Of a stretch of 64,000 nt of DNA, positions 1 through 52,677 are shown piece after piece (positions within the stretch are counted from its first letter, which is position 1; each line of letters begins with the position of its first letter). The translations under genes were made by a program, and so were the position numbers. Under the pieces are notes generated by a model that made no database searches, had not been told where the DNA came from, and worked only from the letters and a program-made list of their open reading frames with translations. This DNA comes from Halorientalis marina (GTDB lineage: Archaea > Halobacteriota > Halobacteria > Halobacteriales > Haloarculaceae). The stretch lies in contig NZ_CP095487.1 of assembly GCF_023028345.1 (NCBI RefSeq), positions 3,472,001 through 3,536,000 on the forward strand, in the 5' to 3' direction.

Positions 1-61
1 CATGGCTCACATTCATCAAACAGTCAGAACATACATCCGACAATAATCTCAAACCACAATC

Positions 62-337
62 ATGACACAGTGCCCCGAATGTGGCGACGACACAAGCCTC
101 TACGAGTGTGGTGAGTGTGGTGTCGATCATTGTGTTGACTGTCGCCTGCCCGATGAACACACCTGCGAGCCGCCAGAAACAACGACTGAGGCAGACGGCC
201 GGACGGCGATTCTAGGACTCTCTGGTAAACAGTGGGGTGCCGTAGTCGTTCTATGGTTTGCTACGGTCGGGAGTAACCCTGATATTACGACCGCAGCAGG
301 AATGGTCGTGCCTTTGTCGGTTCTCTGGCCGTTGTGA
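62..337 (+). CDS. AN1-like zinc-finger membrane protein, probably frameshifted
   Basis: The N-terminus carries a dense Cys/His set (C4, C7, C16, C19, C24, C27, H33, C35) spaced like an AN1-type zinc finger. A hydrophobic stretch follows (about residues 59-91) and the frame then stops at 337. A second reading frame running through the stop, from about 304 to the TAA at 427-429, encodes a convincing second membrane helix and a polar tail. The intact protein was therefore probably about 120 residues with two membrane helices, and a single-base indel near 305-335 broke it. The next gene starts 3 bp after that second frame ends, as expected if 429 was the original stop. Function is unknown. Confidence 0.55.
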   Translation: MTQCPECGDDTSLYECGECGVDHCVDCRLPDEHTCEPPETTTEADGRTAILGLSGKQWGAVVVLWFATVGSNPDITTAAGMVVPLSVLWPL

Positions 338-431
338 TTGCAGTTACCGGACTGTGGGTGAAAGTCCGACCGAACAGTGGCGATGAACAGACCGCAGACG
401 ACACGACCGCAACGAAAGCGAGTGAGTAATA

Positions 432-797
432 ATGAGCAACGAAAACAAAATCCCGACGTTGATGGTTTGTACGCCTGGAATCACGGCGAAACGGTTTACG
501 CGCGATCCAATCGGCACCGAAGGTGAGTTTTCGCCCGGTGACGACCGAGTGAACCCATACCGTTCGGTTGATGAACGCGAAGAGGTTGAACGGGTGAAAG
601 CCAAGCGCGACCGTCAAGAGAAGCGTGGCCCGCAACGAGACGACGTAATCAGCACACCGTTCGCAGAGAACAGCGGCAACGATCTCGTGAAAGTCCCCAT
701 CGAGGACCCAACAGCAGACCCGGACCCATTCGCGTTTGACGACGTGAGCTTTGGCAATATGCAACTGCCGGGCCTTGGCGACGGGCCACGCTTCTGA
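432..797 (+). CDS. Hypothetical protein of the integrated element
   Basis: This is a 121-residue hydrophilic protein with no membrane segment and no family I recognise. The middle is charged and probably helical (residues about 45-75, rich in E, R, K and D) and the C-terminal third is acidic and rich in proline and phenylalanine. It begins 3 bp after the apparent original stop of the preceding zinc-finger membrane gene, so the two were probably co-transcribed. No gene follows on this strand for about 3.7 kb. Codon use is less GC-biased than in the chromosomal genes after 9.7 kb, which fits membership of the integrated element. It could be a structural or regulatory protein; nothing in the sequence decides this. 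Confidence 0.5.
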   Translation: MSNENKIPTLMVCTPGITAKRFTRDPIGTEGEFSPGDDRVNPYRSVDEREEVERVKAKRDRQEKRGPQRDDVISTPFAENSGNDLVKVPIEDPTADPDPFAFDDVSFGNMQLPGLGDGPRF

Positions 798-1445
798 ATC
801 CTATTCTACGGCGGATTGTATCGACAAAACCCCTACCCCTGACGTAGACAATTCGGCACGAACGGCATTGTGTCTGTGCGATATTCGGCAGAAACGGTCT
901 GCTGGATATAGGTACGTGCATGGTACGATAGCACACCATACCCGTGTGTCCCCTCCCCCCTATCACGCATTGTACGATAGACCAGTAGGGGCGTGTGTGT
1001 TGTGTGTGTGAACAGCGACACTCTACAGCTATGTTGCCTGTCGACAGAAAGCGTGTGACGGCGAAGAGGACACCGTATGGCTGACGAAGGTTGTGGGGCG
1101 GTGCCCATCTATCTATACTGTCTGGCAATCCTAGAGTCTTTGGTGAGTCCGAGGGCAGTGAGTCGATACTGTTAGTCTCTATTCAGTCAGACTCTCCTGC
1201 GTGACTATCTTGTTTACCTCTCTGCCTTTGCTAACTAACGTCGGTGCGAACCTGTCACGTCGTGCGGTTCACACAGACAGCACGTTAGCCACGACTCTCC
1301 TGCTGGAAAGAGAGGACCGCTGTAAACCTCGCGTGTATATATTATATGCCGTAGCCGTTTACAGCGACAGCAGTAACCACAGACGCCGTGAGTCTATGGG
1401 CGTATTGAGATATGGATAGGGACGCTACTACTTACTAAGGCCGTT

Positions 1446-1458
1446 GCGCGTTAGTACG
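1446..1458 (+). repeat. Iteron-like 13-bp repeat, copy 1
   Basis: Exact copy of GCGCGTTAGTACG. It starts 57 bp before copy 2 and lacks the downstream GTCATGCGATT block found with copies 2 and 3. Possible initiator-binding site. Confidence 0.6.
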
Positions 1459-1502
1459 TAGGTACACTGTTGCCCTGAATGAATGAACCCTCAGTTCCTA
1501 CC

Positions 1503-1566
1503 GCGCGTTAGTACGAATGTGTAGGTTGCTTCTTTCACCGTCCATCCTTGGTGCCGTCATGCGATT
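1503..1566 (+). repeat. Composite direct repeat, copy 2
   Basis: The block starts with the 13-mer GCGCGTTAGTACG followed by AAYGT, has a divergent middle of about 35 bp, and ends with GTCATGCGATT at 1556-1566. It recurs 113-114 bp downstream (1616-1680). In this copy the ATG inside the terminal box reads M-R-L-stop, so the box is unlikely to be conserved for coding reasons. Confidence 0.6.
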
Positions 1567-1615
1567 GTAGCCACAACGATGAAAGCCACTCAACAACGAT
1601 CCTCGACGACAGTAC

Positions 1616-1680
1616 GCGCGTTAGTACGAACGTATATCGCTGGTTGTTGTTGGCTTTCGTCCCTATGCAGTCATGCGATT
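1616..1680 (+). repeat. Composite direct repeat, copy 3
   Basis: Same layout as 1503-1566: GCGCGTTAGTACG, AACGT, a divergent middle, then GTCATGCGATT at 1670-1680. Conservation of both ends with a diverged centre looks like two protein-binding boxes at fixed spacing, for example iterons or a partition site. Confidence 0.6.
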
Positions 1681-2096
1681 AGTCCAAAGCCATAGCAACG
1701 AGGGACAGCTGACGATCTACAGCGAAGAGAAACAGGAACCATTCGCCGTTGCACCCCCTCTACCACAATTAGAATCGGATTTGGCTCTTCGCGCGATAAC
1801 GGGCGTATGTACGCCCCTGCCGGTAGTTGTTTGTGGTTATTTTCGATTTTCCCCATGCGCGTTGGGTACAGTACCGTACATGGTTCTCTCTGTCTTTTTT
1901 CTTGATTATGTTATGATGTAGTGTCTTAGGCGTTCTCTGTGTCCTTTAGCATAGTTGCCTGTGCTATCCTTTAGTAGGGTGTCTGTCGTGGTGATTCAGT
2001 GGCTGTTATGCCTCTGGCCCGTCGTTCGTGCGTTGTATCGGGTGTAGAACAGTCGCCTAAGCGTCTATCTTGTCAATTCATACCCGCTTTCGGTGG

Positions 2097-2567
2097 TCAA
2101 AAGGTGCCATCCTGCCAATAGTCGTCGGTATCTGTGGTGTGTGACTGCCGTGAGTGTGTGTCTTGGCTACTCTCCCCTGAAATCATACCCGAATCGTCAT
2201 GCTCATGGTCACACTCAAAACGAAGTTGCACACCGCTCGGGAGTGATGGGATTGAGGCACTGTCCCTGTTATCCACGTCGAGATAGTCCCACACGTCAAG
2301 CACAGTATCACAGTCCGGGCAGTACCATTTGCCTTCGGGTAGTTCAAACCAGTGACCTTTGCTATCTTCGGCTTCGTCGTGTAGTTCTCCCCCACAGTCC
2401 GGGCAGTCGGTGACGTTCTGTTGTAGCACATCCAGGTAGGCGGCGACAACCTCGACTGCCCGATGAAAGCCCCGTGGCTCTTTGCCATTCAATTCAGTTG
2501 CTATGTCCATCAAACGATTCTTGTTTTCGTAGGTGGTTCGCGCCCTGAAGTTACGGTTTCGGGTCAT
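2097..2567 (-). CDS. Zinc-ribbon protein of the element, leftward operon
   Basis: This 156-residue protein has a basic N-terminal half (residues 1-50) that may form a small helical DNA-binding unit. A zinc ribbon follows, with two C-P-D-C pairs about 30 residues apart (near residues 55-58 and 83-86). The C-terminus is acidic and rich in S, H and D, and probably disordered. It is the last gene of the leftward operon: its ATG overlaps the TGA of the upstream two-helix membrane gene by 4 bp, implying translational coupling. Function is unknown; a nucleic-acid-binding role is inferred from the ribbon only. Confidence 0.6.
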   Translation of the reverse strand: MTRNRNFRARTTYENKNRLMDIATELNGKEPRGFHRAVEVVAAYLDVLQQNVTDCPDCGGELHDEAEDSKGHWFELPEGKWYCPDCDTVLDVWDYLDVDNRDSASIPSLPSGVQLRFECDHEHDDSGMISGESSQDTHSRQSHTTDTDDYWQDGTF

Positions 2568-2800
2568 TGGCTTAGAAGAATTGCGGCGATTGCCAGCAGT
2601 ACGATCACTCCGGCGACAGCAGCGGCGACGAATCCACCACTGAAAGACGACGACAACCCGTTACTGGCGGTACTGTTGGTTATCGAGGGTGCCGATTCGA
2701 TAGGTGGGTCAACGAGCACGTATCCGATAGCGCCGGCTACAACAGTCACACCACCACCGAACAGGATTCTTGCCCCGAGTGAGTCCCCACGTCCGCTCAT
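2564..2800 (-). CDS. Small two-helix membrane protein
   Basis: The protein has 78 residues and two hydrophobic helices: about residues 10-30, and a stronger one near the C-terminus (about 55-77) rich in A, V, I and L. A Ser/Asn/Thr-rich loop separates them. The start ATG at 2800 overlaps the stop of the upstream 49-residue zinc-ribbon gene by 4 bp, and its own stop overlaps the next start, so it sits in the middle of a coupled operon. Small two-helix proteins are common in haloarchaeal plasmids and viruses, but I recognise no specific family. Confidence 0.6.
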   Translation of the reverse strand: MSGRGDSLGARILFGGGVTVVAGAIGYVLVDPPIESAPSITNSTASNGLSSSFSGGFVAAAVAGVIVLLAIAAILLSQ

Positions 2801-2946
2801 GTTTTCTTCTCTCTCGCTCTGCCGCTTCCGTCACGCTTCATATCAGGGCATGACGGACACGCTTTGGGACGGTCGACACCGGACGGCACGAACACCCGCA
2901 CGTAGTTCTCAGTGACGTGCGACCCACAGTTATCACACTCAGGCAT
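2797..2946 (-). CDS. 49-residue zinc-ribbon microprotein (DUF7563-like)
   Basis: This short frame starts at ATG 2946 and ends at TGA 2797. It has an N-terminal C4-x2-C7 pair followed by G-S-H-V-T and a second pair, C30-x2-C33, then a basic tail. The pattern resembles the small haloarchaeal zinc-finger family I know as DUF7563, whose members begin with a CxxCGSHVT motif. It overlaps the upstream gene by 8 bp and the downstream gene by 4 bp, which supports real translation. Probable role: a small nucleic-acid- or protein-binding zinc finger. Family assignment is from memory of the motif. Confidence 0.65.
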   Translation of the reverse strand: MPECDNCGSHVTENYVRVFVPSGVDRPKACPSCPDMKRDGSGRAREKKT

Positions 2947-3202
2947 CCCTATCACCGTATGGGTTCCCGCCGTTCATCTTTGCACAACTCCCACAGAAAC
3001 TTGTGTTTCTCCGCCTGTTGAATTTCTCTAGCGACGTGGCCCGCAGAATCCGGGCGTTGATTGCGCAGAGAGTGGTGAAATCACCGTTTTCGGTTTCTTT
3101 TGGGATATGCCAGATGTTGTTGCCGGCAGTGGCAAACAGCACTGTCTTCTCGCTGTTTTCGACCTTCTCGGCAGGAACGGTATTGTGCTGTTGGTGGCTC
3201 AT
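2939..3202 (-). CDS. Hypothetical element protein with Cys pairs
   Basis: This 87-residue protein is basic towards its C-terminus, with a run of Arg/Asn around residues 60-67. A C-x2-C pair (CGSC, about residues 70-73) and an isolated Cys near residue 44 might form a metal site. Its ATG at 3202 overlaps the upstream gene by 4 bp, and its end overlaps the following zinc-ribbon microprotein by 8 bp, so it belongs to the coupled leftward operon. I recognise no family. Confidence 0.55.
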   Translation of the reverse strand: MSHQQHNTVPAEKVENSEKTVLFATAGNNIWHIPKETENGDFTTLCAINARILRATSLEKFNRRRNTSFCGSCAKMNGGNPYGDRDA

Positions 3203-3534
3203 TGTTTCTCACCGTTCAAATCCCAGTCATCGGTCATCTGAAACCCGTTGTACGCGCCGCAGGCCGTTTTCAGGACACATTCAAGAGTTACGTCCTTTGG
3301 CGAAACGTCATGATCTCGTGCGATAGCTTCCCGTGTCTGTCGGATTCTCTTATCTTCGTCAAACGACAGTAGCCCGTTGTTGAAGGCTTCGAGGGCTGCA
3401 CCGACAACATCCGGCCGAGAGAGTTCATCCGGTGCAACGTCACGGTCCTGTGCGACTTTCTCCCGCGCCTGCTCGAATTGTTCAATGTGCTCTTCGCGTT
3501 TGAGGGTAAGATACACACCTTCTGTTTCGCTCAT
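3199..3534 (-). CDS. Hypothetical acidic helical protein
   Basis: This 111-residue protein contains two similar helical segments. Residues about 20-50 include an R-D-x-A-P-D-E-L stretch, and residues about 65-95 include R-D-H-D-V-S-P-K-D-V, each followed by a predicted helix. This looks like an internal duplication and may indicate two copies of a small fold, possibly ribbon-helix-helix or helix-turn-helix related. The start overlaps the stop of the membrane-anchored regulator (3531-3534, ATGA), so the two are translationally coupled and may work together. No function is recognised. Confidence 0.55.
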   Translation of the reverse strand: MSETEGVYLTLKREEHIEQFEQAREKVAQDRDVAPDELSRPDVVGAALEAFNNGLLSFDEDKRIRQTREAIARDHDVSPKDVTLECVLKTACGAYNGFQMTDDWDLNGEKQ

Positions 3535-4286
3535 GCGGTTTCACCTCCGAAGAACCACGACAGAAGCCGTGCCGGGGCACCGATGGCACCGCCCGCGTGG
3601 GCCAGTGTTGCGACGAGTCCAGCAATCCCAGTCGCGTAGGACAATGCTAGCAGAGCGTTACCAGCAGTAGCGGACGTGTAGAGGCTGAGTGCTAGCCACG
3701 TTCCGAACGTGACTATGACGACAATTCCACTACCAAGAACGCCCATGTAGATAGCACCTGGAATACTGACGGTCATTTCGGAGGTGTCAATAACCGGCCG
3801 CCCGCCAGTGACCCGATTACGGGCACTTTTGTACGTTTTCCAGCCGATGAAAGCCAGTAGAATAACCAGCATAGCAGCGGGTATGCTCATATTGCCACGA
3901 TCCCCGGACAGTCGAGATAGTAGCCCGGCAGTGTTGTTCGTGGGTTCAGGCTCTTCGGGTCCATCATAGTCCGCTGGCGCGTCACGTGGTTGTGTTTGCA
4001 TACCGCCTGAAGCGGGTGCTCCCGTGTCGGCAGGCTCCGCAGGACCAACGTACCACCCGACACTTTTCCCACGGCCACGCCCGACTTCGAACTTATTGAT
4101 CTTCCCTTCGCTCTCCAAGCTGTCTAACCGCCGGTAGACAGTTTTTCGGTCATACTCGACTTCGTGCGCTTCCTCGATCTCGTCTTTAATCGTGGATGTT
4201 GACGGGTACACGTCCCCCTGCGGCCACTCCTCCACCGCGGCAACGAAATCATCATCATCCACATCCGCATTACGCCCACGTGCCAT
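3531..4286 (-). CDS. Membrane-anchored winged-helix regulator
   Basis: I chose ATG 4286 (251 residues); a longer frame to 4340 would read through the operator-like box. Residues about 8-75 form a winged helix: a D-R-K-T-V-Y-R-R-L recognition-helix-like segment, then a Gly/Arg-rich wing. A Pro/Thr/Glu linker (about 80-125) leads to three hydrophobic helices (about 131-151, 172-200, 207-235). DNA binding at the N-terminus and a membrane domain at the C-terminus suggest a one-component regulator that senses the membrane or a membrane protein. It heads the leftward operon. Three operator-like boxes lie in the divergent promoter region directly upstream, so autoregulation is likely. The architecture is seen; the sensing role is inferred. 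Confidence 0.65.
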   Translation of the reverse strand: MARGRNADVDDDDFVAAVEEWPQGDVYPSTSTIKDEIEEAHEVEYDRKTVYRRLDSLESEGKINKFEVGRGRGKSVGWYVGPAEPADTGAPASGGMQTQPRDAPADYDGPEEPEPTNNTAGLLSRLSGDRGNMSIPAAMLVILLAFIGWKTYKSARNRVTGGRPVIDTSEMTVSIPGAIYMGVLGSGIVVIVTFGTWLALSLYTSATAGNALLALSYATGIAGLVATLAHAGGAIGAPARLLSWFFGGETA

Positions 4287-4287
4287 A

Positions 4288-4397
4288 TGTCCCACTTGGA
4301 TAGCCGCAAACTTAGTCTTTACCCACGTGGTGCATATCATCTATTATAACCTTGAATAATGTCCCAAGTGACGGTATATGTTTATGTCCCACTTGGT
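4288..4397. promoter_or_regulatory. Three operator-like boxes in the divergent promoter region
   Basis: TGTCCCACTTGG occurs at 4288-4299 and again at 4385-4396. A related box at 4360-4370 reads TGTCCCAAGTG, in which CCAAGTG is the reverse complement of CACTTGG. The boxes bracket TATA-like sequences for both strands (TTATAA near 4345 for the leftward operon; TTATATA near 4400 rightward). Likely binding sites for the winged-helix protein starting at 4286. Confidence 0.55.
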
Positions 4398-4504
4398 CTT
4401 ATATAGGGGTAAGAACGCTGCCGTGGCTACGCGAGATTGAGTCGGTCGGGGGAGAAAAGCCCCAACCAGTGTGTTGGTACACTCTGGTTTTGGCGGGGCA
4501 GTAG

Positions 4505-4511
4505 TATAAAA
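4505..4511 (+). promoter_or_regulatory. TATA element for the rightward replication operon
   Basis: TATAAAA lies 66 bp before the first start codon (4577), placing transcription initiation near 4535 and leaving a leader of about 40 nt. A GCGCACG/CGTGTGC imperfect inverted repeat follows it. Confidence 0.4.
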
Positions 4512-4576
4512 CCGCGCACGTTTCGACGTGTGCGGGGCGTTACGGCGCGTTCGATAACTAGCCACCCTTTCCACAA

Positions 4577-4774
4577 ATGGCGACGAACGACCGCAACGCC
4601 CCTGCAAAAGAGGGGCGCACGAAGCGAGGTAAAGATACCGAACCAAACCGCGATAGCTTGGCGTTTTACGCCGAGAAAGCGCCCGAAGGCACGTCTACTA
4701 CGGCGATCATTGGCGCGTACCATAGCGACAAACGCGCCAGTGAAATTGAGGACTGGGGGGAGTACGATGCTTGA
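4577..4774 (+). CDS. Hypothetical basic protein heading the replication arm
   Basis: This 65-residue protein has a very basic N-terminal third (residues 1-25, rich in R, K and N) and a more structured acidic second half. It is the first gene of the rightward operon, following the TATA element at 4505. Its last 8 bp overlap the start of the next 40-codon ORF. I recognise no family. The charge pattern would suit a small nucleic-acid-associated protein, but that is a guess. Confidence 0.5.
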   Translation: MATNDRNAPAKEGRTKRGKDTEPNRDSLAFYAEKAPEGTSTTAIIGAYHSDKRASEIEDWGEYDA

Positions 4775-4889
4775 GGTTGAAAAGCTGGCTCAGGACGATC
4801 CCGAAGCCGTCCGAGAGTTCGCCCACGGCTGTCCGAATCCGCTCAAGAGTCACCTGCTGGCGATTGTTGACGATGTGGAGGGTTCGTAA
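4767..4889 (+). CDS. 40-residue microprotein
   Basis: The frame runs from ATG 4767 to TAA 4887-4889 and encodes a compact acidic protein with helix-favouring composition. It overlaps the upstream gene by 8 bp, and its stop shares one base with the next ATG (TAATG). Such tight chaining over successive short frames is the main evidence that it is translated. No family or function is recognised. Confidence 0.5.
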   Translation: MLEVEKLAQDDPEAVREFAHGCPNPLKSHLLAIVDDVEGS

Positions 4890-5038
4890 TGCTCGGGAAA
4901 CGAGCGAACTACAAGTGCCCTTCCTGTGGCAGTTTGTCAATTTTCCGGGAAGTGGGGCGGCTGTTCATCTGTTTGGACTGCCGAACACCGACGTTGGAAC
5001 GGCCCGGCCGTCCCCGTGATAGGTGGTGGTCAGGATGA
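4889..5038 (+). CDS. 49-residue zinc-ribbon microprotein
   Basis: The protein has C10-x2-C13 and C28-x2-C31 knuckles separated by about 15 residues, the layout of a rubredoxin-like or transcription-factor-type zinc ribbon, followed by an Arg/Pro-rich tail. It starts on the last base of the previous stop codon and ends with a 4-bp ATGA overlap into the next ORF. Its place just ahead of the zinc-ribbon/winged-helix protein and the primase-helicase suggests a replication or transcription accessory role. Function is unproven. Confidence 0.6.
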   Translation: MLGKRANYKCPSCGSLSIFREVGRLFICLDCRTPTLERPGRPRDRWWSG

Positions 5039-5127
5039 ATTGGTGCTGGCCCGAGAGTTCGCCGTCGACCGGCTGGCGCGACGTGGCGCGGATCATGGCC
5101 GCGACCCAGGGGGTGAGCCACCGATGA
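5035..5127 (+). CDS. 30-residue linking ORF
   Basis: ATG 5035 to TGA 5125-5127 gives 30 residues, including three Trp and one Cys. It overlaps both neighbours by exactly 4 bp (ATGA), filling the only gap between two better-supported genes. It may be a real microprotein or may serve mainly to carry ribosomes to the next start. There is no homology to cite. Confidence 0.35.
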   Translation: MNWCWPESSPSTGWRDVARIMAATQGVSHR

Positions 5128-5924
5128 ACCAGTTAACATTAGCGGATATTAACGCTAGTTCACTATCGAACTACGTTACCTGGGTCTACAACGATAACGC
5201 CGGTCACGGTGAGATACAGCCATACGCACACTCAAACGAGGACTGGATAGCTACCTGTTCGGACTGTGGCACGCGGGTTGATTCAGTCATTGACACACGT
5301 TCTGACTGGGATGGTGGCATTGTGAGTGGTGTCGAGAGCGAGATAGACGATGGTGTTTATCGCTACGAACACGCCGACACTCCCATCTGCCGTGATTGTG
5401 TCGAGCGGACCACCAGCAGTTGGGGCGGATGGGAAACTCACGAAGCGGACCACGAAACGGTGGTTAGCAAGTACGGTAAGAATCCGTCCGAAACAGTCCT
5501 TGAGCTAGGGAAGATGCAACGGGCGGTGTTGCTGGCAATGCTGGATCATTGGGACGGGTCGCACCCTAGCGAATTTGAAGGATGGGTGAAACGAGTTGAT
5601 GTAACCCGACAAATCGCTAGTGCGGACTACCATTCAGCAACGTCGACCAATTCGTTGTATGCCAGTGTGTCCCGCGCGGTTCACTCTCTGATTGACCGTG
5701 GGCTGCTGACAGGCGCTTATCGGGCGTGGCACACCTATCATGGCGACAGTCCACCGATGAACGCCCACGAGGATCAACCTTGGTCGGGCGACCAGGGCGA
5801 CAGTCCATTTGACGGCAACCAGAACGATAACCCGACTATCGAGAAGGTCCGGCTACGGATGGATGGGCTACGCGCTGGTGCGTTAATATCAGAGTATCTT
5901 AACGGAGGTGCTACGCCGCGATGA
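5124..5924 (+). CDS. Zinc-ribbon/winged-helix protein preceding the primase-helicase
   Basis: I chose ATG 5124 (266 residues) because it makes the same ATGA overlap with the upstream ORF seen throughout the operon; a longer frame from 4926 would overlap two other genes. Residues C45, C48, C89 and C92 form two C-x2-C knuckles around a Trp/Asp-rich insert. Residues about 128-200 look like a winged helix (helix, T-R-Q-I-A turn, helix, R-G-L-L wing). The C-terminus is polar. Placement directly before the replication gene, with a 4-bp overlap, suggests an origin-binding or accessory initiator protein. The function is inferred. Confidence 0.6.
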   Translation: MNQLTLADINASSLSNYVTWVYNDNAGHGEIQPYAHSNEDWIATCSDCGTRVDSVIDTRSDWDGGIVSGVESEIDDGVYRYEHADTPICRDCVERTTSSWGGWETHEADHETVVSKYGKNPSETVLELGKMQRAVLLAMLDHWDGSHPSEFEGWVKRVDVTRQIASADYHSATSTNSLYASVSRAVHSLIDRGLLTGAYRAWHTYHGDSPPMNAHEDQPWSGDQGDSPFDGNQNDNPTIEKVRLRMDGLRAGALISEYLNGGATPR

Positions 5925-8293
5925 ACCAGTTGCCCCCAAAAGACGCCTATCCAGAGTGGGCGAAAGCATACGATAATTGGGCGTTGTGGTCCCGCGAATC
6001 CGAAAACGCCGGGAAGCCACTTAAGAAGAATCAATACGGTGCCAGTTGGTCTGACCCGGACTGTGGGTACTCATTTGAGGACGCCTATGAAGCCGCCCAG
6101 TCTGACGACTACTTTGATGGCATTGGGTTGGTAGTCCCCGACGACGCCGTAATATACGGGATAGACCTTGATGGGTGCCTTCGAGAGCCGAACGCACCAA
6201 AACCGAAAGACTGGGTGCCGAAGCTCGATCTGTTTGTTGACGACGCCTATATTGAGTATTCTAAGTCCGGTACTGGCCTACATATCTTTGCGAAAGGCAA
6301 CGTGCCGGAGTGGTGGACTAACAGCCACTTTAGCAACGATGAACACGAAGGCGTTGAAGCCTATGATAACAAGTTCTTCATTTTTACTGGCGACAGGCTC
6401 CCTATCTCGGCAGATACGCCCGAGGAGGTTGATCCGCGACCGTGGCTCATGAAAGCCTACAAAGGGGTTCGTGGCCGTCTCCCGACGCTTGGAACGCCCG
6501 ATGCTGATAGTGACGATTACGACGGTTCACATGAGCTGTCCAAGGCAGATATTGAAAACGCATTGGACAGTCTCAATCCCGATATGGGACACTCTGAATG
6601 GGTCCGAATGGCATTTGCCGTGTACGACTGGGATGATGGAAACACCGGGAGGAGTGTCTTTGAGAGTTGGTCACGACAAGGTAGTAAGTTCGACTCTGCC
6701 GCCGAGAGCACGATTGAATGGGTCTGGTCAAACGCCGATGATGGGGACTCAAACAACAATACGTCCCTTGGATCGTTGATCTACGAAGCTAAGCAAAATG
6801 GCTGGTCGTACCCAACAACGGACGGCGGTACTACCACACAACAGCAGAGTTCGGACAGGCCAGCAGGCAACACCGATTCGGACGAATCCGATGATGGGGA
6901 CGGATGGGATTATGTCCGGGGTCAGTACCAGGCCGCGTCAACAAAAGAGAGTCCCGTCGAGAAGAACGACGCCCGGTTTGAAGCCGCCGAACAGTTGTTA
7001 GACGAGTTCCGTTTCGCCAACCGGGAGGACGATGATGTGCTGTTCGTGTACGACGAAAGTAGTGGTATCTACGAGGAGAATGGTGAAAGCGTCATTCGCC
7101 AACGGGCGCGGAAAGGGCTACAGGGTGCCTTTGCCCGTCAAGAGGTTGGGGAACTGGCCGAACACATCCGCGCGGCACGGACGTATGCTATCGAAGAGTT
7201 TGGTGGCCCTGAGTGGCATATCGCTCTTGACAATGGGGTGCTACGGATTGACCGGGGCGGGAACGCCGATCTACTCAACCATGACCCCGAATACCTGTTC
7301 ATCAATCAGGCCGGGACACGGTACGACCCCGACGCCGACTGTCCCCGCTGGAAGCGATACCTGAAAGAGACAGTCAAATCCGACACGCACCGGATGAAAC
7401 TACAGGAATACGCCGGCTACTGCCTCATGCACTGGGGGATGCCCGAACACAAGGCGTTGTTCCTGGTTGGCCCGCAGGCGTCCGGTAAGTCGACGTTCGC
7501 AGATACAATCCGCGCCCTGTTGGGTGGAGCGGACAACGTGGCGAGCATGGCCCCGCAACAGATGACCAGCCGTTTCGGGACTGCCGAACTGTTCAGTGCA
7601 TGGGCCAACATTCGCAACGACATTCCGCCAAAAACGATTGAAGAAACTGGCACGTTCAAGGAGATTACAGCGGGCGATCCCATCAAAGCCGAACGAAAGG
7701 GTAAGCCACTGTTCCACTTCCGACCCACGGCAAAGCACATATTCAGTGCTAACCAGCTGCCCGACGCCGAGGACGATGATGGGGCGTTCTACCGCCGTGT
7801 GTTGCTCGTGCCATTCCCAACGACCATTCCCCGCGAGCAACGGAATAAGTCGCTAGACGACAAGCTCCGCGACGAGTTGCCCGGTATCCTGAATTGGGCG
7901 CTTGATGGACTGTCCCGGCTTCTACAGCAGGACGGTTTCACGGGCGATCTCTCCGTGCATGAGACGGCAGAGACGTGGGATAAGTGGGGCAACACCGTTG
8001 ATAGATTCGCCAAAGTATGCCTGGAAACGTCGGGTAGTGGAACACCGAAGCCGAAGAAAGAGGTGTACGCTATGTACCAACGGTTCTGCGATGACGAGAA
8101 CTTCCCGGCGGACACACAACGCAAGATGACGCGCCGGCTGAAAACGGAGCATGGGATACAAGACGGGCACGCGACGGTTGACGGTCGACAACAGCGGTGC
8201 TTCCTCAATGTCGAATATACGTCCCGTGCCGAACAGTACCAGGAGTCCGACGACGATGATGTGAATGGGTCGGGCCTTGGCGACTACTCCTAA
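5921..8293 (+). CDS. PrimPol / D5-type SF3 helicase replication protein
   Basis: This 790-residue protein combines a primase-polymerase and a helicase. Near residue 79 is an Asp motif (Y-G-I-D-L-D-G) and near 117-126 an S-G-T-G-L-H-I-F motif, the metal-binding and SxH signatures of the archaeo-eukaryotic primase superfamily. Residues about 205-270 resemble a PriCT-2 domain. After an acidic linker comes a D5-N-like region and then an SF3 AAA+ helicase with Walker A G-P-Q-A-S-G-K-S-T (about 516-524), a Walker B-like segment near 560 and sensor F-S-A-N-Q-L-P near 607. Plasmid and phage proteins of this type prime and unwind DNA for self-replication. It is the last gene of the rightward operon and the best evidence that the element is a replicon. 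Confidence 0.85.
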   Translation: MNQLPPKDAYPEWAKAYDNWALWSRESENAGKPLKKNQYGASWSDPDCGYSFEDAYEAAQSDDYFDGIGLVVPDDAVIYGIDLDGCLREPNAPKPKDWVPKLDLFVDDAYIEYSKSGTGLHIFAKGNVPEWWTNSHFSNDEHEGVEAYDNKFFIFTGDRLPISADTPEEVDPRPWLMKAYKGVRGRLPTLGTPDADSDDYDGSHELSKADIENALDSLNPDMGHSEWVRMAFAVYDWDDGNTGRSVFESWSRQGSKFDSAAESTIEWVWSNADDGDSNNNTSLGSLIYEAKQNGWSYPTTDGGTTTQQQSSDRPAGNTDSDESDDGDGWDYVRGQYQAASTKESPVEKNDARFEAAEQLLDEFRFANREDDDVLFVYDESSGIYEENGESVIRQRARKGLQGAFARQEVGELAEHIRAARTYAIEEFGGPEWHIALDNGVLRIDRGGNADLLNHDPEYLFINQAGTRYDPDADCPRWKRYLKETVKSDTHRMKLQEYAGYCLMHWGMPEHKALFLVGPQASGKSTFADTIRALLGGADNVASMAPQQMTSRFGTAELFSAWANIRNDIPPKTIEETGTFKEITAGDPIKAERKGKPLFHFRPTAKHIFSANQLPDAEDDDGAFYRRVLLVPFPTTIPREQRNKSLDDKLRDELPGILNWALDGLSRLLQQDGFTGDLSVHETAETWDKWGNTVDRFAKVCLETSGSGTPKPKKEVYAMYQRFCDDENFPADTQRKMTRRLKTEHGIQDGHATVDGRQQRCFLNVEYTSRAEQYQESDDDDVNGSGLGDYS

Positions 8294-8326
8294 CTAACGC
8301 CGTACCTGTTCTTTACGCTCTGCTTT

Positions 8327-8354
8327 GGAAAATTTTTGAGCGCGAAATTTTTCC
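8327..8354 (+). terminator. Hairpin after the primase-helicase gene
   Basis: GGAAAATTT and AAATTTTTCC arms flank a short GC-containing loop, 34 bp after the stop codon. The A/T-rich stem with T-runs is consistent with transcription termination of the rightward operon. Confidence 0.45.
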
Positions 8355-8499
8355 ACATCGTAGCATACCCACCGACAGCGGTAGGTATCATACTACAACC
8401 CGATTACTGCTCTTTACCGTGGTGAAAGTGTAATCTCTGCCTTCAGCCGCTAACAATACAATAAACGACCATATCACTAAACTGACTACACGACCCCCC

Positions 8500-8550
8500 C
8501 GAAATCTTTGCGGGAGTGCGTGTGCGCGTGTGCGCTCGCCCAAAGATTCG
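8500..8550. repeat. Inverted repeat with alternating purine-pyrimidine loop
   Basis: Left arm 8500-8516 (CGAAATCTTTGCGGGAG) and right arm 8535-8550 (CTCGCCCAAAGATTCG) pair with one bulge and one mismatch. The loop between them is almost purely alternating GT/GC, a composition that favours Z-DNA. It may be a cruciform, a protein-binding site or a terminator. Confidence 0.5.
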
Positions 8551-8713
8551 GCACCCATTGTGTAGTAAGCAAACTGATATACAACCGTCCGTTGCTAAGG
8601 GCGGTGAAAAAAGGACATAACACTTTCACTGAGGTTGTGAACTGCCGCCCACGTTCGCTATAGCGGTTATAGCCAACCGTGGTATTAACTACATGGGTCA
8701 CAATGTGGCCCAT

Positions 8714-8956
8714 ATGAGTGAATGGACTCACTCAGACGGTTTGGACAGAGAAACCCGCCAGCGACGGGCAAAAAACGGGAAGTGCGTTATCTGTGGCGGC
8801 GACTACGATCACATTGAGCCAGTCAAGAGTACCGACACAGATAGCGACTGGCCGATGCTTGGACGTGCATTTGTGCATGGCGACACCGAGTGTATTGAGT
8901 GGCCGACTGGCGTGACGCAGGAGTACGACACAGTGAATGAGCGAATCATTCAGTGA
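8714..8956 (+). CDS. Hypothetical Cys-containing element protein
   Basis: The protein has 80 residues from ATG 8714; an in-frame ATG at 8693 would add seven residues. I prefer 8714 because a TATA-like TTAAC lies about 30 bp upstream and leaderless starts are usual here. A K-C-V-I-C-G-G knuckle followed by an Asp/His segment, with a later His and Cys (H-G-D-T-E-C), could bind zinc. The imperfect inverted repeat TGGGTCACAATGTGGCCCA around 8695-8713 covers the start region and may be an operator. The 3' end overlaps the next gene by 20 bp. Confidence 0.5.
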   Translation: MSEWTHSDGLDRETRQRRAKNGKCVICGGDYDHIEPVKSTDTDSDWPMLGRAFVHGDTECIEWPTGVTQEYDTVNERIIQ

Positions 8957-9173
8957 CCGCGTGACGACACTGGTTGAAGAGACGGCCTTGAGCGACCAAC
9001 AGGCCCGTGTAGCTCTGTATCGGTATCAGGGCTACTCATGGACCGAGATAAGCGAAGAAATGGACATAGGCCGGGACACGGCACGGAACTACCACGACCG
9101 CGCCAAGGAGAAGTATGAACAGGCCAGTGCGACAGTCGAGAGGTTAGAAGAAATCGGGTTTGGTGCCGAGTGA
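8937..9173 (+). CDS. Small helix-turn-helix protein (sigma-region-4-like)
   Basis: This 78-residue protein has a clear helix-turn-helix: S-D-Q-Q-A-R-V-A-L (about 19-28), then G-Y-S-W-T-E-I-S-E-E-M-D-I-G-R-D-T-A-R-N-Y-H (about 32-53). That is the arrangement of sigma-70 region-4 and LuxR-type modules, followed by a coiled-coil-like C-terminal helix. It overlaps the preceding gene by 20 bp and is the last element gene before the chromosomal junction. Likely a transcription regulator of the element, possibly controlling maintenance or excision; that role is inference. Confidence 0.6.
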   Translation: MSESFSDRVTTLVEETALSDQQARVALYRYQGYSWTEISEEMDIGRDTARNYHDRAKEKYEQASATVERLEEIGFGAE

Positions 9174-9192
9174 CGCGCGACTGATTTTCGTC

Positions 9193-9251
9193 GATACCTA
9201 CCAGTTTGCGTATAGAAAGGGGTGTCTGAAAATCTATCAGGTATCTGGTAG
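9193..9251. other. Inverted-repeat pairs near the right end of the element
   Basis: GATACC (9193-9198) pairs with GGTATC (9240-9245), and CTACCAG (9198-9204) pairs with CTGGTAG (9245-9251). Two alternative stems so close to the junction could be recombinase arm sites. No integrase gene lies in the window. Confidence 0.3.
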
Positions 9252-9327
9252 TGGTTGCACCGTCCTTACGCCGTGTGGCGATTCGCATACCCACGGCATA
9301 GGGTTGGTTGTAAGAATGAATGGTGCA

Positions 9328-9669
9328 TTATGCGGCTTTCATCGAGAAGGCGTGATCCACGCTGTCGGTCTCGAACGGGAGTCGCTCGAAGTCGCCCTGG
9401 AGGAAGCCAACGGCGCGGTCGTCGGTGTACGAGCGGGCGTTCCGGACCATCTCCGGCGAGGCGTCGACGCCGTAGGCGCGTCCCGCTCCCTTGATCTCGC
9501 GGAGGGCGCGGGCGGCGTACCCGCTCCCACAGCCCAGATCGAGCACCGTGTCGCCGGCCTCGACCGGCATCCGTTCGAGGACGTGTTTCGCGGTGTGCCA
9601 GTGGCGCTCCTCCATCCCCCTGTCGCGCCCCTCGCTGGCCCACCGGTCGAACTCCTCGCGAACGCTCAT
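9328..9669 (-). pseudogene. Class I SAM methyltransferase truncated by element insertion
   Basis: From ATG 9669 the frame encodes a normal methyltransferase N-terminus: V-L-D-L-G-C-G-S-G-Y motif I near residue 45, an acidic motif II region, and an F-E-R-L-P-F segment. It ends abruptly after D-H-A-F-S-M plus three residues. Relatives known to me continue from this motif (usually H-x-F-S-M-E-A-F-Y-Y) for about another 100 residues. Homologous sequence appears to stop near 9340, exactly where composition changes to that of the AT-rich element. The missing C-terminal half probably lies beyond the left end of the element, outside the window. The product is almost certainly inactive. Confidence 0.75.
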
Positions 9670-9786
9670 GGATGTGCCAGTCCCCGGCCCGACAAAACGG
9701 GTTCGGTCGCGGCCGCTCCGTGACCGCGCCAGCGGCACCGAGGCCGCTCCGGGACCGTTTTAGCCCTCGGGGGCGAGACCGTCGGC

Positions 9787-10230
9787 ATGGTCGGGAAAAG
9801 CCGTCGGTTCGCGGTCGCCGACACGGCCCAGCAGATCGTCGGCGGGTTCCTGCTGGCCGGGCCGTTCGTCGTCACCGAGGAGGTCTGGGTGCTGGCCGCA
9901 CGGATGACCGTCGGCCACCTCGCCGCCGTCGTCACCATCGTCTTCGCCATCGGCTACGGCGCCCTCTACAAGGCCGACGACGACCGCGACCCCGACAGCG
10001 AGCAGGAGGTCGCCGGTATCCCCCTCCGCTTTCTCTCGCTGATGTGCGTCGCCTTCGGCTCCGTCACCGTCCTCGCGCTCGCCTTCACCGCGCCCCGGAC
10101 CTTCCTCGTCGAGGGCGAAATCCTCGCGGCTCCGACACCGACCCTCGTCGCGCTCACTACGGTCAAGGCCGTCGCCGTCGGCGCCATCTTCAGCGTCGTC
10201 GGCGCCGCGACGGCGGACTCCGTCTTCTAG
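9787..10230 (+). CDS. DUF2391-like integral membrane protein
   Basis: This 147-residue protein has four hydrophobic segments (about residues 15-35, 42-60, 83-103 and 118-140) and short charged loops, including an acidic D/E-rich loop near 65-75. Its size and layout match the haloarchaeal DUF2391/TIGR02587-type membrane proteins as I know them; biochemical function is unknown. The first intact chromosomal gene right of the element, it is followed immediately by a hairpin (10231-10255) that may terminate transcription. Confidence 0.65.
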   Translation: MVGKSRRFAVADTAQQIVGGFLLAGPFVVTEEVWVLAARMTVGHLAAVVTIVFAIGYGALYKADDDRDPDSEQEVAGIPLRFLSLMCVAFGSVTVLALAFTAPRTFLVEGEILAAPTPTLVALTTVKAVAVGAIFSVVGAATADSVF

Positions 10231-10784
10231 GCCCCCACTTTTTACTGCGGGGGGCTTCCTCGGGCGCAGAGCGCCCTGTGGGAGCCCCCCGTCTGCTCAC
10301 GGGCGCTTTGCGCCCGTTCGCATGGTATGCGGGACCTTCGGTCCCGCACTATTGCAAAAACTTGGGGAAAAACGACGGAACTCGCGCCACGGCGCGAGTT
10401 CCGTGATTCCCGTGAGTGACCACAGGGAGCGAACGGGATCGTACGGAAATCTTCGATTTCCGTGATGCCAAAAATCTCCGATTTTTGAGCAGCTCGGCAG
10501 AGCTTGCTCTGACGGTGACCGCGCTCACTTCGTTCGCGCGGATGCTTGATTCGCTCACGCTGACCGCCCAACGAAGACGGCCGCCCTGCCCTTCCCCGGG
10601 TCGTGCGGCCCGCGAGGCCGCGGGCACGCACTCCCGGCCGACCGCACCACCGGTGACTGCAGTGATTGGAGACGGTTGAACGGCAGCGAGGCCGCGTCGT
10701 AGCCGTGTCCGCGCGGATACCAGGGCTCGAACCCCCCGACCGAGACCCGCAACCTTAACGCCGTCGCCGGTGTTCTGTGGCGAT
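10231..10784. repeat. Tandem cluster of short perfect hairpins in an intergenic region
   Basis: No gene is visible. Successive inverted repeats occupy 10231-10255, 10248-10291 (nested, 12-bp arms plus an inner GGGCGC/GCGCCC stem), 10300-10316, 10329-10347, 10377-10402 (perfect 12-bp arms), 10444-10462, 10469-10487, 10488-10510 (imperfect) and 10519-10541. Several have TTC or TTT loops. The arms differ in sequence, so this is not one repeat copied, but many independent palindromes in a row. Region 10545-10750 shows no obvious structure. A TATA-like CTTAAC near 10755 precedes the next gene. Confidence 0.75.
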
Positions 10785-35354: not shown

Positions 35355-35681
35355 CTACTGTGCGGCCGGGTCCGCCGCGGCTTCCGCGGCCGAAACGTCC
35401 TCGACCGCGATGTCCGCATCCCCGTCCGCGCCCACGTCGTCCGACGGGGCTCGACGGCGCCGGACCACGGCTGCCGCGACGCCCGCCAGAACGACCAGTC
35501 CGACGACCGCACCGACGCGACCGCCTGCCTCACGCGAACCCTCGTCGGGTGCCCCGCCCGACGCGTCGGCCGGTCCCTCGGTCACCGCTTCGTGGTCCGC
35601 GTCGTCGCCCGTCCGGGGCGACGGGGCGAACGTGGCGTCGTCGAGGTGTACTTCGAACAGTGTGACGGTATCGAATGCCAT
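35355..35681 (-). CDS. Single-pass membrane protein, unknown function
   Basis: I chose ATG 35681 (108 residues), with TCTATAAG about 27 bp upstream, a clear leaderless promoter. An N-terminal soluble part of about 50 residues precedes one membrane helix (about 53-72) followed by R-R-R-R and an acidic/Ala-rich tail. The GGAPDEG...GGRVGAVVG junction and helix-plus-basic stop resemble a C-terminal anchor, though the tail is long for that. The family is unknown. Confidence 0.5.
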   Translation of the reverse strand: MAFDTVTLFEVHLDDATFAPSPRTGDDADHEAVTEGPADASGGAPDEGSREAGGRVGAVVGLVVLAGVAAAVVRRRRAPSDDVGADGDADIAVEDVSAAEAAADPAAQ

Positions 35682-50854: not shown

Positions 50855-51460
50855 TCATTCGAGACGGGCCGCGACGGCGTCACGGTCAGCGGGCGTGTCG
50901 ACGTTCGTCGCCCACCCGTCGAGGGGGACGGTCTCGACGGTGCCGCCGGCCGCGAGGAGGTCATCGATGGCAGGGGTGAGTTCGTACTCGCCGGTCGAGG
51001 CCGAGTCGACCGGCCGGCAGGCCTCGAAGACCGCCGGGGAGAAGGCGTAGAAGCCACGCGGGACGGTCGCCGACGGCGGGTCGTCGGGTTTCTCCACGAG
51101 ACCGGTCACGCGGCCCGCGTCGTCGAGCTCGATGACGCCCGCCCGGACGGCTTCCTCGCGCGGGACGTCCTCCGCGAGCAGTGTCACGTCGGCGCCGGTG
51201 GCGTGGTGACGCTCCGGAACCGCCGCGAGGTCGGCGTCGAACACGTTGTCGCCGTTCATCGCGAGGAAGTCGCCGTCGCCGGCGGGGCCGTCGGCGGCCG
51301 CGGGTCCGCCGTTCGCTCCCGCCGGGGCGGCCGCGCTCGCGAGCGGTTCGTCGCCGGTCGTCGCGTACAGTTCGACGTCGTCGGCGAAGTGTTCGGCGAG
51401 CGCCTCCGCGATGGCCTGGGCCTCACCTTCCGTCGTGTCGGGGTCGACGCGTATCCGCAT
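50855..51460 (-). CDS. Chimeric protein: small-protein N-terminus fused to a nucleotidyltransferase C-terminus
   Basis: ATG 51460 opens a 201-residue frame. Residues 1 to about 45 form a compact domain unrelated to nucleotidyltransferases. An Ala/Gly/Pro-rich linker (about 45-65) follows. From about 66 on the sequence is the second part of a sugar-phosphate nucleotidyltransferase (F-L-A-M-N-G-D-N-V-F, V-E-K-P-D, G-F-Y-A-F-S-P). The N-terminal G-x-G-T-R-L-R-P-L-T signature of about 95 residues is absent, so catalysis is not expected. This looks like two genes fused by deletion. It overlaps the upstream acyl-CoA dehydrogenase stop. Confidence 0.6.
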   Translation of the reverse strand: MRIRVDPDTTEGEAQAIAEALAEHFADDVELYATTGDEPLASAAAPAGANGGPAAADGPAGDGDFLAMNGDNVFDADLAAVPERHHATGADVTLLAEDVPREEAVRAGVIELDDAGRVTGLVEKPDDPPSATVPRGFYAFSPAVFEACRPVDSASTGEYELTPAIDDLLAAGGTVETVPLDGWATNVDTPADRDAVAARLE

Positions 51461-52677
51461 TAGTAGGATTTGGGGAAGCCGAGTTCCTGGCTGATGTGGT
51501 TGTAGGCCATCTGCTGGGTGACCGGTGCCAGGCGGGTGAGGTTGATCTCGCGCCACCACCGCTCGACGTCGTACTCCTTCGCGTAGCCCCAGCCGCCGAA
51601 GGCCTGCATCGACTGCTTGACGGCCTCGATGCCCGCCTCGACGGCCGTCGCCTTCGCGACGTTGGACTCGTAGCCACAGGGCTCGCCCTGGTCGAACAGC
51701 CACTCGGCCTTCTGTCGCATCAGTGCCGCCGTCTCCATCCGCGTGTACGCCTTCGTGATGGGGAAGGAAACGGCCTGGTGCTCGCCGACGGGGCGCCCGA
51801 ACACCTCGCGGTCGTTCGCGTACTCGATGGCCTTCTCGGCGGCGAGTCTGCCGATGCCCGTCCCCGCGGCCGCGAAGCCGATGCGTTCGGGGTTGAGCAT
51901 GTCCACGAGCGCCCACCAGCCGTCGTCCTCCTGCCCGAGCAGGTCGTCCTCGTGGACGCGCACGTCCTCGAAGAAGACCTCACAGGACTTCGAGTAGTTG
52001 ATGGCGTGTTTCTCGATGGGCGACACCGAGATGCCCGGACTGTCCATGTCGACGATGAAGAGGCTAATCCCGTCGGTCCCCTTCTCCACCTCGTCGCGGG
52101 GCGTGGTTCGGGTGACGAGGACCATGTTGTCCGCGCGGTCCGAGAAAGTGATCCACGCCTTCTGCCCGTTGATGACGTACTCGTCGCCCTCCTCAGAAGC
52201 CGTGGCTTCTGTGGGGTCAGCCGAGGTTTCCTCGGCGGAGTCTTTCTCCGCGCGTGTCGTTACGTTCAGCGTGTTCGTCCCCGCTTCGGGTTCGGTGATG
52301 CCGATGGAGAAGTTCCGCTGGCCGGTCGCGATGTCGGGCAGGTACCGCTCTTTCTGCTCGTCGGTACCGTTCTCGCGGATGCCGATTGCGGCCATCCCGC
52401 CGGTGAGGACGAGATACCAGGTGCCGGCCATGCCACAGCCCTCGGCACACAGCGTCTCCATCGCCAGGCCCATCTCGGCCATGCCCATCCCGGCGCCCTC
52501 GTACTCCTCGGGAACGAGTAGGCCGTGAAAGCCCGCGTCGGCGAGTTCGTCCCAGAAGCCCTGGGCGAACTCCCCGGCTTCCTCTTTCTCGCGCCAGTAC
52601 GCCGGTCCGTACTCGGCCGCCACGTCCGCGGCCGTCGAGCGGATCATTGACCGTTCCTGTGTGGTTTCGAAGTTCAT
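51460..52677 (-). CDS. Acyl-CoA dehydrogenase with an in-frame palindromic insertion
   Basis: I chose ATG 52677 (405 residues). The FAD/acyl-CoA segments are typical: I-G-I-T-E-P-E-A-G-T (about 126-135), W-I-T-F-S, G-R-P-V-G-E-H-Q-A-V (about 315), and Q-A-F-G-G-W-G-Y (about 368-375). Residues about 144-164 are an acidic Ser/Glu/Ala/Thr insert not expected in the family, and its DNA (52194-52250) is three perfect hairpins in a row. The insert lies in a surface loop before D-E-Y-V-I-N-G and keeps the frame, so activity may survive. The fused downstream ORF starts on its stop codon. Confidence 0.85.
   Translation of the reverse strand: MNFETTQERSMIRSTAADVAAEYGPAYWREKEEAGEFAQGFWDELADAGFHGLLVPEEYEGAGMGMAEMGLAMETLCAEGCGMAGTWYLVLTGGMAAIGIRENGTDEQKERYLPDIATGQRNFSIGITEPEAGTNTLNVTTRAEKDSAEETSADPTEATASEEGDEYVINGQKAWITFSDRADNMVLVTRTTPRDEVEKGTDGISLFIVDMDSPGISVSPIEKHAINYSKSCEVFFEDVRVHEDDLLGQEDDGWWALVDMLNPERIGFAAAGTGIGRLAAEKAIEYANDREVFGRPVGEHQAVSFPITKAYTRMETAALMRQKAEWLFDQGEPCGYESNVAKATAVEAGIEAVKQSMQAFGGWGYAKEYDVERWWREINLTRLAPVTQQMAYNHISQELGFPKSY
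52194..52250. repeat. Three tandem hairpins inside the acyl-CoA dehydrogenase gene
   Basis: CAGAAGCC-GT-GGCTTCTG (52194-52211), GCCGAGG-TTT-CCTCGGC (52220-52236) and CGGAG-TCTTT-CTCCG (52236-52250) are consecutive perfect inverted repeats. The style matches the intergenic hairpin cluster at 10231-10541. The block contributes about 19 in-frame codons. Confidence 0.7.

Follow-up and report, generated by a model that had tools for sequence, protein, structure and literature searches.

How does a block of short, perfect palindromes come to stand inside the reading frame of an enzyme? The question is raised by an acyl-CoA dehydrogenase (ACAD) gene in a 64,000-nucleotide stretch of the Halorientalis marina genome (contig NZ_CP095487.1, positions 3,472,001 to 3,536,000 of the forward strand), which will be referred to as the window. 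We consider it most probable (roughly 85%) that the insert in this gene is a single copy of a haloarchaeal palindromic element that is mobile, consists of two short hairpins and enters genes in frame. Precise in-frame insertion, recurrence, many unrelated host genes, a target bias and covarying hairpin arms are all observed. The features of the locus, in window coordinates, are listed here.

51460-52677, minus strand: ACAD gene, 404 codons after the ATG, matching Pfam Acyl-CoA_dh_N, _M and _1.
51460-51462 and 52675-52677, minus strand: ends of the ACAD gene, the stop codon and the ATG, respectively.
52189-52239, minus strand: inserted element, 51 bp or 17 codons, encoding the peptide SAEETSADPTEATASEE, missing from most orthologous genes.
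52240-52242, minus strand: left-junction codon GAC, which is the RAC target and is taken as host sequence from the empty sites and the histidine kinases.
52220-52236, minus strand: hairpin 1, GCCGAGG-AAA-CCTCGGC, conserved across the family.
52191-52214, minus strand: hairpin 2, with the core CAGAAGCC-AC-GGCTTCTG at 52194-52211, variable and covarying.
52189-52191, minus strand: right end codon, GAG in the window copy and RAC in most copies, followed by the G of a host GGC codon.
52235-52251, plus strand: third palindrome of the preliminary description, half element and half host, a junction product.

Palindromes are present on the plus strand, as the preliminary description of this DNA had claimed for 52194-52250. 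They are CAGAAGCC-GT-GGCTTCTG at 52194-52211 (8-bp arms), GCCGAGG-TTT-CCTCGGC at 52220-52236 (7-bp arms), and GCGGAG-TCTTT-CTCCGC at 52235-52251 (6-bp arms, read by eye). Of the three hairpins counted there, the first two belong to the element. The third was rejected as a part of it, because it shares 2 nt with the second and spans the left junction. This palindrome is imperfect in Natrinema altunense, although the insert there also comes after GCGGAG. With slashes at the two junctions, the coding strand of the site reads GAG AAA GAC / TCC GCC GAG GAA ACC TCG GCT GAC CCC ACA GAA GCC ACG GCT TCT GAG GAG / GGC GAC GAG. The insert peptide is acidic and is positioned before the sequence DEYVING, again as first described.

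By themselves, the local hairpin statistics are modest. The window contains 5 pairs of perfect hairpins (arms of at least 7, within 60 nt), compared to a mean of 1.0 and a maximum of 3 in 20 first-order Markov resamplings of the window. Paired perfect hairpins are not very rare in the window, and the case therefore rests on comparison. The insert is taken as more than chance because the 51 bp are present or absent in near-identical genes, the element recurs across genes and genomes, and its arms covary.

The comparison of ACADs covers 84 aligned sequences, the best 80 of 185 relatives together with 4 of 28 matches from the H. marina genome itself. A 17-residue insert is found at the same codon in 6 of them: the window gene, a paralogue in the same genome (44% identical), genes of Natrinema altunense and Natronorubrum thiooxidans, and genes of two metagenome-assembled genomes of Halobacteriales. 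It is missing from the other 78. These include a second H. marina paralogue that is 88% identical to the window ACAD, the genes of Halorientalis pallida (89%) and H. regularis (88%), which are the nearest rows of the tree, the gene of Natrinema pallidum, and the Archaeoglobus-type and Bathyarchaeota homologues of the set. The orthologue alignment that had been suggested as a check thus points to insertion. On a quick tree of 82 of the 84 rows (L004 and the partial L067 dropped, insert columns excluded), the insert trait, at its single codon, requires 5 changes. Starred branches force every one of them, and one concerns a deep paralogue on a very long branch.

Two filled and empty pairs are close enough to show the insertion in detail. 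The genes of N. altunense (filled) and N. pallidum (empty) have 97.5% DNA identity (2.5% base differences), plus exactly the 51 bp. Those of Natronorubrum thiooxidans and N. sulfidifaciens have 95.6% identity (4.4% differences), plus 51 bp. Divergence flanking the insert is not raised in either pair, and the empty sites read GAR AAR GAY GGC. For the two filled ACAD copies of H. marina, the elements share 57 of 60 bases, and the whole genes, insert included, are 59.9% identical. In this genome, a gene for a TnpB protein and the element-bearing ACAD paralogue lie about 1.3 kb apart (G000:C1:901847-902047 and 903368-904585).

The element is not confined to ACADs. A plain DNA search of 392 genomes of the order Halobacteriales, with the element and a short ACAD flank as the query, found 24 matches in 19 genomes. 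All are read within long open frames, in frame 0, and the hosts include topoisomerase I and an acyl-CoA ligase. A first covariance model (R2), without host flank, was built from 25 copies, 23 of those 24 and two plasmid copies, and matches 178 of the 392 genomes (E≤0.01). A second model (R3), built from 97 copies, matches 229 of the 392 genomes and 70 of the 95 genera of the order (E≤1e-4). The E-values of these models are rough. Over 52189-52242, the window element scores 76.2 bits with R2 and 69.3 bits with R3. Another match in the window, at 35360-35396, dropped from 21.3 bits with R2 to 10.4 bits with R3 and was taken as chance.

In a sample of 196 genomes drawn from the phylum, G522 is the sole genome outside the order with matches at E≤1e-4, and 12 further genomes outside the order have single matches with E between 5e-4 and 1e-2. 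G522 (L238-L246; 84% complete) has 24 matches; of the 13 inspected, several are identical, and the open reading frames (ORFs) around them are mostly short. The H. marina genome has 10 matches at E<1e-4, two ACAD copies counted, all in frame 0 of open frames of at least 215 codons. The genome search for further in-frame copies that the preliminary description had called for is thereby positive. The hosts in this genome include four histidine kinases, a sulfite-reductase-type enzyme, a semialdehyde dehydrogenase and an argininosuccinate-lyase-type enzyme. Seven copies fold as RNA with z between -3.7 and -7.5, so that the element is both palindromic and repeated in the genome. Viral carriers were rejected: pattern scans of viral contigs gave 0 and 2 matches, both lacking the second hairpin by eye, and no match to the element was found in phage records.

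Matches inspected in detail number 122 (97 + 25). Left out were L208 and L210 (judged chance) and L163 (a near-copy of L157) from the first 60 loci. From the next 41 matches, L218 (the window copy repeated) was dropped together with 13 in G522 and, at L233 and L249, a second match that was weaker. In 111 of the 122, the element is spanned by a frame-0 ORF of at least 200 codons. The model length is not divisible by three in 6 of these 111 genic copies (53 nt four times, 47 and 50); because the frame goes on, these are read as matches ending short of the codon. Frame 0 has no stop in any of the 111 copies and a mean charge of -3.41 per element. In comparison, the mean charge is -1.45 to +4.63 in the other frames and -1.26 per 17 residues in the hosts. 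Only frame 0 is both stop-free and strongly acidic.

The same pattern is found in a further set of 40 matches that were used in no model build, part of the remaining R3 rows, with hosts judged by ORF and not by Pfam. Here 36 copies are genic and in frame 0, with lengths of 48 nt (23 copies) or 54 nt (13 copies), and the remaining 4 are all 53 nt. One match, L328, lies in a 500-codon frame, yet was classed as non-genic (53 nt, likeness to the non-genic class, no Pfam match). The first set includes 11 non-frame-0 copies, and the length of 8 of these is no multiple of three. Thirteen ORFs, 12 in other frames over non-frame-0 copies and the frame-0 ORF of L328, gave no Pfam match at 1e-5, and the other-frame ORFs are taken as non-coding for this reason. 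Nine loci (L162, L164, L174, L194, L215, L298, L299, L303 and L328) probably form a non-genic class, mostly of 53 nt, in which hairpin 2 often ends in TTCGTCGAAC, a similar CGTCRAAC is often located ahead of the element, and no multiple-of-three rule holds.

The frame pattern bears on the idea of an intron at the RNA level, in which the hairpins would be cut from the mRNA to give a protein without the loop. Some archaeal mRNAs are spliced, and the strong RNA hairpins of the seven folded copies would suit such an element. However, an intron needs neither a stop-free frame 0 in all 111 genic copies nor lengths of 48 or 54 nt in 36 of 36 further genic copies, and eight loci gave no Rfam match at the gathering score. 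We regard an intron as highly improbable.

The hosts are diverse. Fifty non-ACAD hosts, picked to be mostly distinct, were scanned against Pfam, and 44 match a domain in frame 0 at 1e-8. They include leucyl-type (LeuRS), glutamyl-type and class II tRNA synthetases, an SRP54-type GTPase, a PolX-like polymerase, HMG-CoA reductase, tetrahydrofolate dehydrogenase/cyclohydrolase, argininosuccinate synthase, an anthranilate-synthase-type enzyme, S-adenosylhomocysteine hydrolase, Pus10, sulfite/nitrite reductases, pyridine nucleotide-disulphide oxidoreductases and sensor kinases. Among the six without a match at this threshold (L173, L176, L193, L198, L206 and L219), L206 matches at 2.7e-7, and L176, L193, L198 and L219 have no match at 1e-5. 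Grouping by homology (113 copies, ORF limit of 150 aa, two probably non-genic copies included, both of L162) gives 48 host groups, one of which, L162, is probably not a gene. In the largest group, which is ACAD-type, the element is located before a [DG]-rich turn and a Y/W/F-V strand, at the same aligned motif by eye in 39 of 40 members. The remaining member, L119 (1495-1578), is a shortened variant with hairpin 1 alone and other unusual insert residues upstream.

In the sulfite reductase of H. marina, the 17-residue insert is missing from all 19 other homologues fetched, including four congeneric near-orthologues. A distant homologue, L284, has a different, shorter insertion at this position. 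Two sulfite reductase genes (L277 and L289, in G006 and G167) have one in-frame TAG. The element is thus inserted in frame into unrelated genes and is missing from orthologues in the two families compared, ACAD and sulfite reductase. The one clear exception to the frame pattern is L364 (G381:C1:2672283-2672336), a 54-nt element in a TnpB gene, which is one base out of phase and encodes a basic peptide. RACG sites in host genes are in sense frame 0 in 40% of cases and in antisense frame 0 in 31%. Because these frames are mixed, either a filter or targeting coupled to the strand must account for the use of a single frame.

The best of five AlphaFold models of the window protein (mean pLDDT 80.9) places the insert in a disordered loop between strands 141-144 and 165-176, with pLDDT below 50 for residues 147-160. 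Two aligned solved relatives show a gap in the insert region. For the window protein, the insert is therefore predicted by this model to be in an unstructured or surface part. An acidic, frame-specific peptide is also what would be expected of an inherited, useful loop of halophilic enzymes, and some inserts do persist between related species, for example the 48-nt copies in L157, L175 and L186. On the other hand, presence among ACADs is scattered, the insert is missing from sister species, and the element enters unrelated enzymes. Inheritance of a useful loop is as an explanation scarcely credible.

Hairpin 1 is nearly constant among the copies and hairpin 2 is very variable, with the pairing of the arms maintained. 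In a MAFFT alignment of the 25 copies that sequence search alone had found, pairing holds in 96.2% of cells, compared to 86.8% after shuffling and at most 46.6% in slid controls. Both sides change in 7 of the 17 pairs, giving 39 compensated cells compared to 12.7 after shuffling. Among the 97 copies, which were chosen by the model and aligned to it and are biased towards it accordingly, both sides change in 16 of the 17 pairs, with 306 compensated cells compared to 89.3. Covariation of this kind may arise because the folded form is recognised or because of quasi-palindrome correction.

The latter process belongs to a second view, in which no mobile element exists: template switching (snap-back synthesis) would make the palindromes in place, and quasi-palindrome correction would keep the arms perfect. 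The almost perfect pairing of the hairpin 2 arms despite a free sequence is in line with this, as are the junction palindrome in the window ACAD and tandem repeats in histidine kinases, and snap-back synthesis may explain why the arms stay perfect. However, hairpin 1 and the spacer have a sequence common to different genera and unrelated genes. Independent snap-back events are disfavoured because of this sharing across unrelated hosts, and the view as a whole is very unlikely.

The copies show a target bias. The left codon is GAC or AAC (RAC) in 96 of 113 copies. Immediately past the right end, the host sequence starts with G in 45 of the 48 host groups, compared to 54% after RAC codons generally (p=1.7e-9); in the further set it is G in 30 of 36 (p=2e-4). 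The length from RAC to RAC is 48-57 nt in most copies. At the ACAD site alone, a 3-nt duplication fits equally. In histidine kinases, however, the native N-box N(AAC)-AVEH becomes N-[AVEHGSTxxx...D]-AVEH after insertion. The left RAC here is the native Asn codon of the N-box and the right codon is mostly GAC, which suggests from the sequence that insertion targets the left RAC, with the right RAC as the end of the element. Seven histidine kinases (L233, L250, L251, L221, L222, L224 and L226) have the element exactly in the N-box (NAVEH), sometimes in tandem. The 5′ end of the element resembles the N-box, which may be its birthplace.

Several points weigh against a mobile element. Both transposition and the insert peptide are read here from genome sequence alone. 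Counts of changes on the tree cannot tell gain from loss, and precise loss between flanking GAC copies could mimic gain. The other four of the five AlphaFold models are poor, with mean pLDDT of 54.7-58.7. Copies in unrelated hosts of one genome are 0.675 alike, compared to 0.670 under permuted genome labels (556 of 2000 permutations as high). As they are no more alike than permuted copies, there is no sign of recent bursts, and a general likeness of copies within genomes was rejected. In one genome, G008, the ACAD and topoisomerase I copies are nevertheless identical at 51 of 54 positions. A single enzyme family accounts for 40 of the 113 copies, at a single site, and exchange between genes by recombination could be the cause.

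Recombination might even be the main means of spread, with short-tract gene conversion moving the insert among alleles and paralogues, to the same codon repeatedly. Recombination is frequent in haloarchaea, as reported in parts of PMC3990103, and the same codon is filled in diverse ACADs. Between genomes, likeness is higher for elements in homologous hosts (0.743) than for those in unrelated hosts (0.670). Of 63 pairs at the same site, 36 have an element more alike than its flanks; in one of them, two sulfite reductases, the inserts are 98% identical and the flanks 71%. However, the same site can hold elements that are merely 44-59% alike, with flanks 76-83% alike (six pairs), and no conversion tract surrounds the insert in the two near-identical filled and empty pairs. 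Recombination also leaves about 48 unrelated host groups and the topoisomerase/ACAD pair unexplained. As the main means of spread it is improbable.

Evidence on a mover also weighs against the reading as a mobile element. IS200-type TnpA (PF01797) was detected in 6 of 11 bearing genomes and was not found in G086, G092, G248, G382 and G522 (completeness 89% for G086 and 84% for G522), despite 10, 4, 10, 8 and 24 element matches, respectively. TnpB-type proteins were detected in 9 of the 11, and not in G092 and G522 at the limits used. Over 44 TnpA/TnpB loci, whose transposon boundaries are unmapped, R3 gave weak matches only, the best with 19.7 bits. In the 260 nt behind 30 TnpB loci, a perfect hairpin of at least 7 bp is found in 9 cases, none element-like by eye. 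With 5 of 11 bearing genomes lacking a detected TnpA and no clear element ends at the 44 loci, IS200-type TnpA was rejected as the general mover; the mover may have been lost or be another enzyme.

These data also bear on a proposal that the element derives from IS200/IS605-type transposons as a terminal-only remnant: a PATE of haloarchaea cut to its two end palindromes, and moved by a TnpA transposase that cuts single-stranded DNA behind a short target. Parts of PMC3119063 describe PATEs and IS605-type transposons of Haloquadratum and Natronomonas with end palindromes, no target duplication, a short left target lying outside the element and heterogeneous copies, as well as a 52-bp terminal-only form. 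Strain-specific insertions exist although most tnpA genes are broken (PMC3119063, in part). The histidine kinases, with the left RAC as target and the right RAC as element end, agree with such an anatomy. The likeness is by description, not by sequence, and the parts of PMC3119063 consulted do not describe PATEs as in-frame gene inserts. Given the five genomes with no TnpA found and the weak matches at transposon loci, this origin is unlikely, if less so than the other alternatives. Mechanistic kinship with PATE/IS605-type elements may exist: dissimilar copies are common to both, and the left target and the absence of a target duplication would be too if the reading from the histidine kinases holds.

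For a mobile palindromic element, which is the reading preferred here, the following steps can be proposed. Single-stranded DNA exposed by replication or repair would fold into the two hairpins, and a structure-recognising enzyme or a repair pathway would join this hairpin DNA after RAC and before G, in the same strand. In the two closest filled and empty pairs, insertion appears to have occurred without other change. The insertion itself is probably blind to the reading frame, because the non-frame-0 copies are mostly not multiples of three and the copy in the TnpB gene is in another frame. Products that are out of frame, interrupting or basic would then be removed by selection. What would survive is one frame, in copies whose length is a multiple of three, because only that frame is stop-free and gives an acidic, hydrophilic, disordered loop. 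Salt-adapted proteins would tolerate such a loop, with selection acting in the halophilic proteome. The remaining copies would be kept as flexible acidic loops and, through recombination between alleles and paralogues, would spread further; their persistence would be selfish rather than beneficial.

The haloarchaeal element works like the in-frame palindromes of Rickettsia, Wolbachia and Methanocaldococcus jannaschii. The preliminary description had likened the insert to Rickettsia palindromic elements (RPEs) that enter genes, with non-identical arms; the comparison bears this out, as the arms differ between copies and keep pairing. In-frame gene insertion is common to the Rickettsia and Wolbachia palindromes and the haloarchaeal element, and nearly half of the first RPEs are in genes according to parts of PMC10969869 and PMC2996958. 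RPEs are about 150 bp, form ten families and occur in intracellular bacteria, as stated in portions of PMC10969869. The haloarchaeal element has 48-57 nt, two covarying hairpins and a RAC^G site, and is found in free-living archaea, which sets it apart by description. Membership in the RPE family proper was rejected on the difference in length (mostly 48-57 nt vs about 150 bp). The coding palindromes of M. jannaschii (FEBS Lett 2005, as cited in parts of PMC2996958), in frame in housekeeping genes, are an archaeal precedent; this is a different archaeal lineage, and the likeness is by that cited description alone. PARCELs are also palindromic coding DNA. In contrast, however, they are tandem amphipathic repeats of bacteria and eukaryotic microbes, with none in the archaeal genomes available to the authors of PMC2996958. 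In a full-text search of openly licensed literature, no haloarchaeal in-frame palindrome was found, but one may be in print elsewhere.

In-frame palindromes in housekeeping genes are described from two genera of intracellular bacteria and one methanogen in parts of PMC2996958. The behaviour is seen here in 229 of 392 sampled genomes of one order. The order includes easily cultured, genetically tractable species. Because precise filled and empty pairs are available, together with a target motif, covarying hairpins and a pattern of frame use, the mode of insertion and the effect on the enzyme are directly testable. The element is a concrete route for short acidic loops into core halophilic proteins, and such loops, where they appear in alignments of haloarchaeal proteins, may reflect mobile DNA and not adaptation. 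A bolder proposal, which we hold tentatively and with somewhat more doubt than belief, is that most haloarchaea carry still active, protein-invading palindromic elements, recognised by shape and not by sequence, and moved by something other than IS605 TnpA. With one frame of the hairpins encoding an acidic disordered peptide, they would have become a standing source of new salt-compatible loops in core enzymes. Hairpin 1 was in this proposal perhaps born from the N-box of histidine kinases by snap-back duplication.

The preliminary description had also linked the insert to an intergenic cluster of hairpins near 10.3 kb of the window. This link is not supported: in searches of the whole window at E≤10 (9 matches with R2 and 43 with R3), no match is located in 10240-10620, and the hairpins there have arms and loops different from those of the element. 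The region 10240-10620 is intergenic and holds many perfect hairpins in an array; their arms differ, and TTC or TTCG loops are frequent. Positions 1-10000 of the window have a GC content of 0.52-0.59, compared to 0.64-0.73 elsewhere, which suggests a foreign or integrated region.
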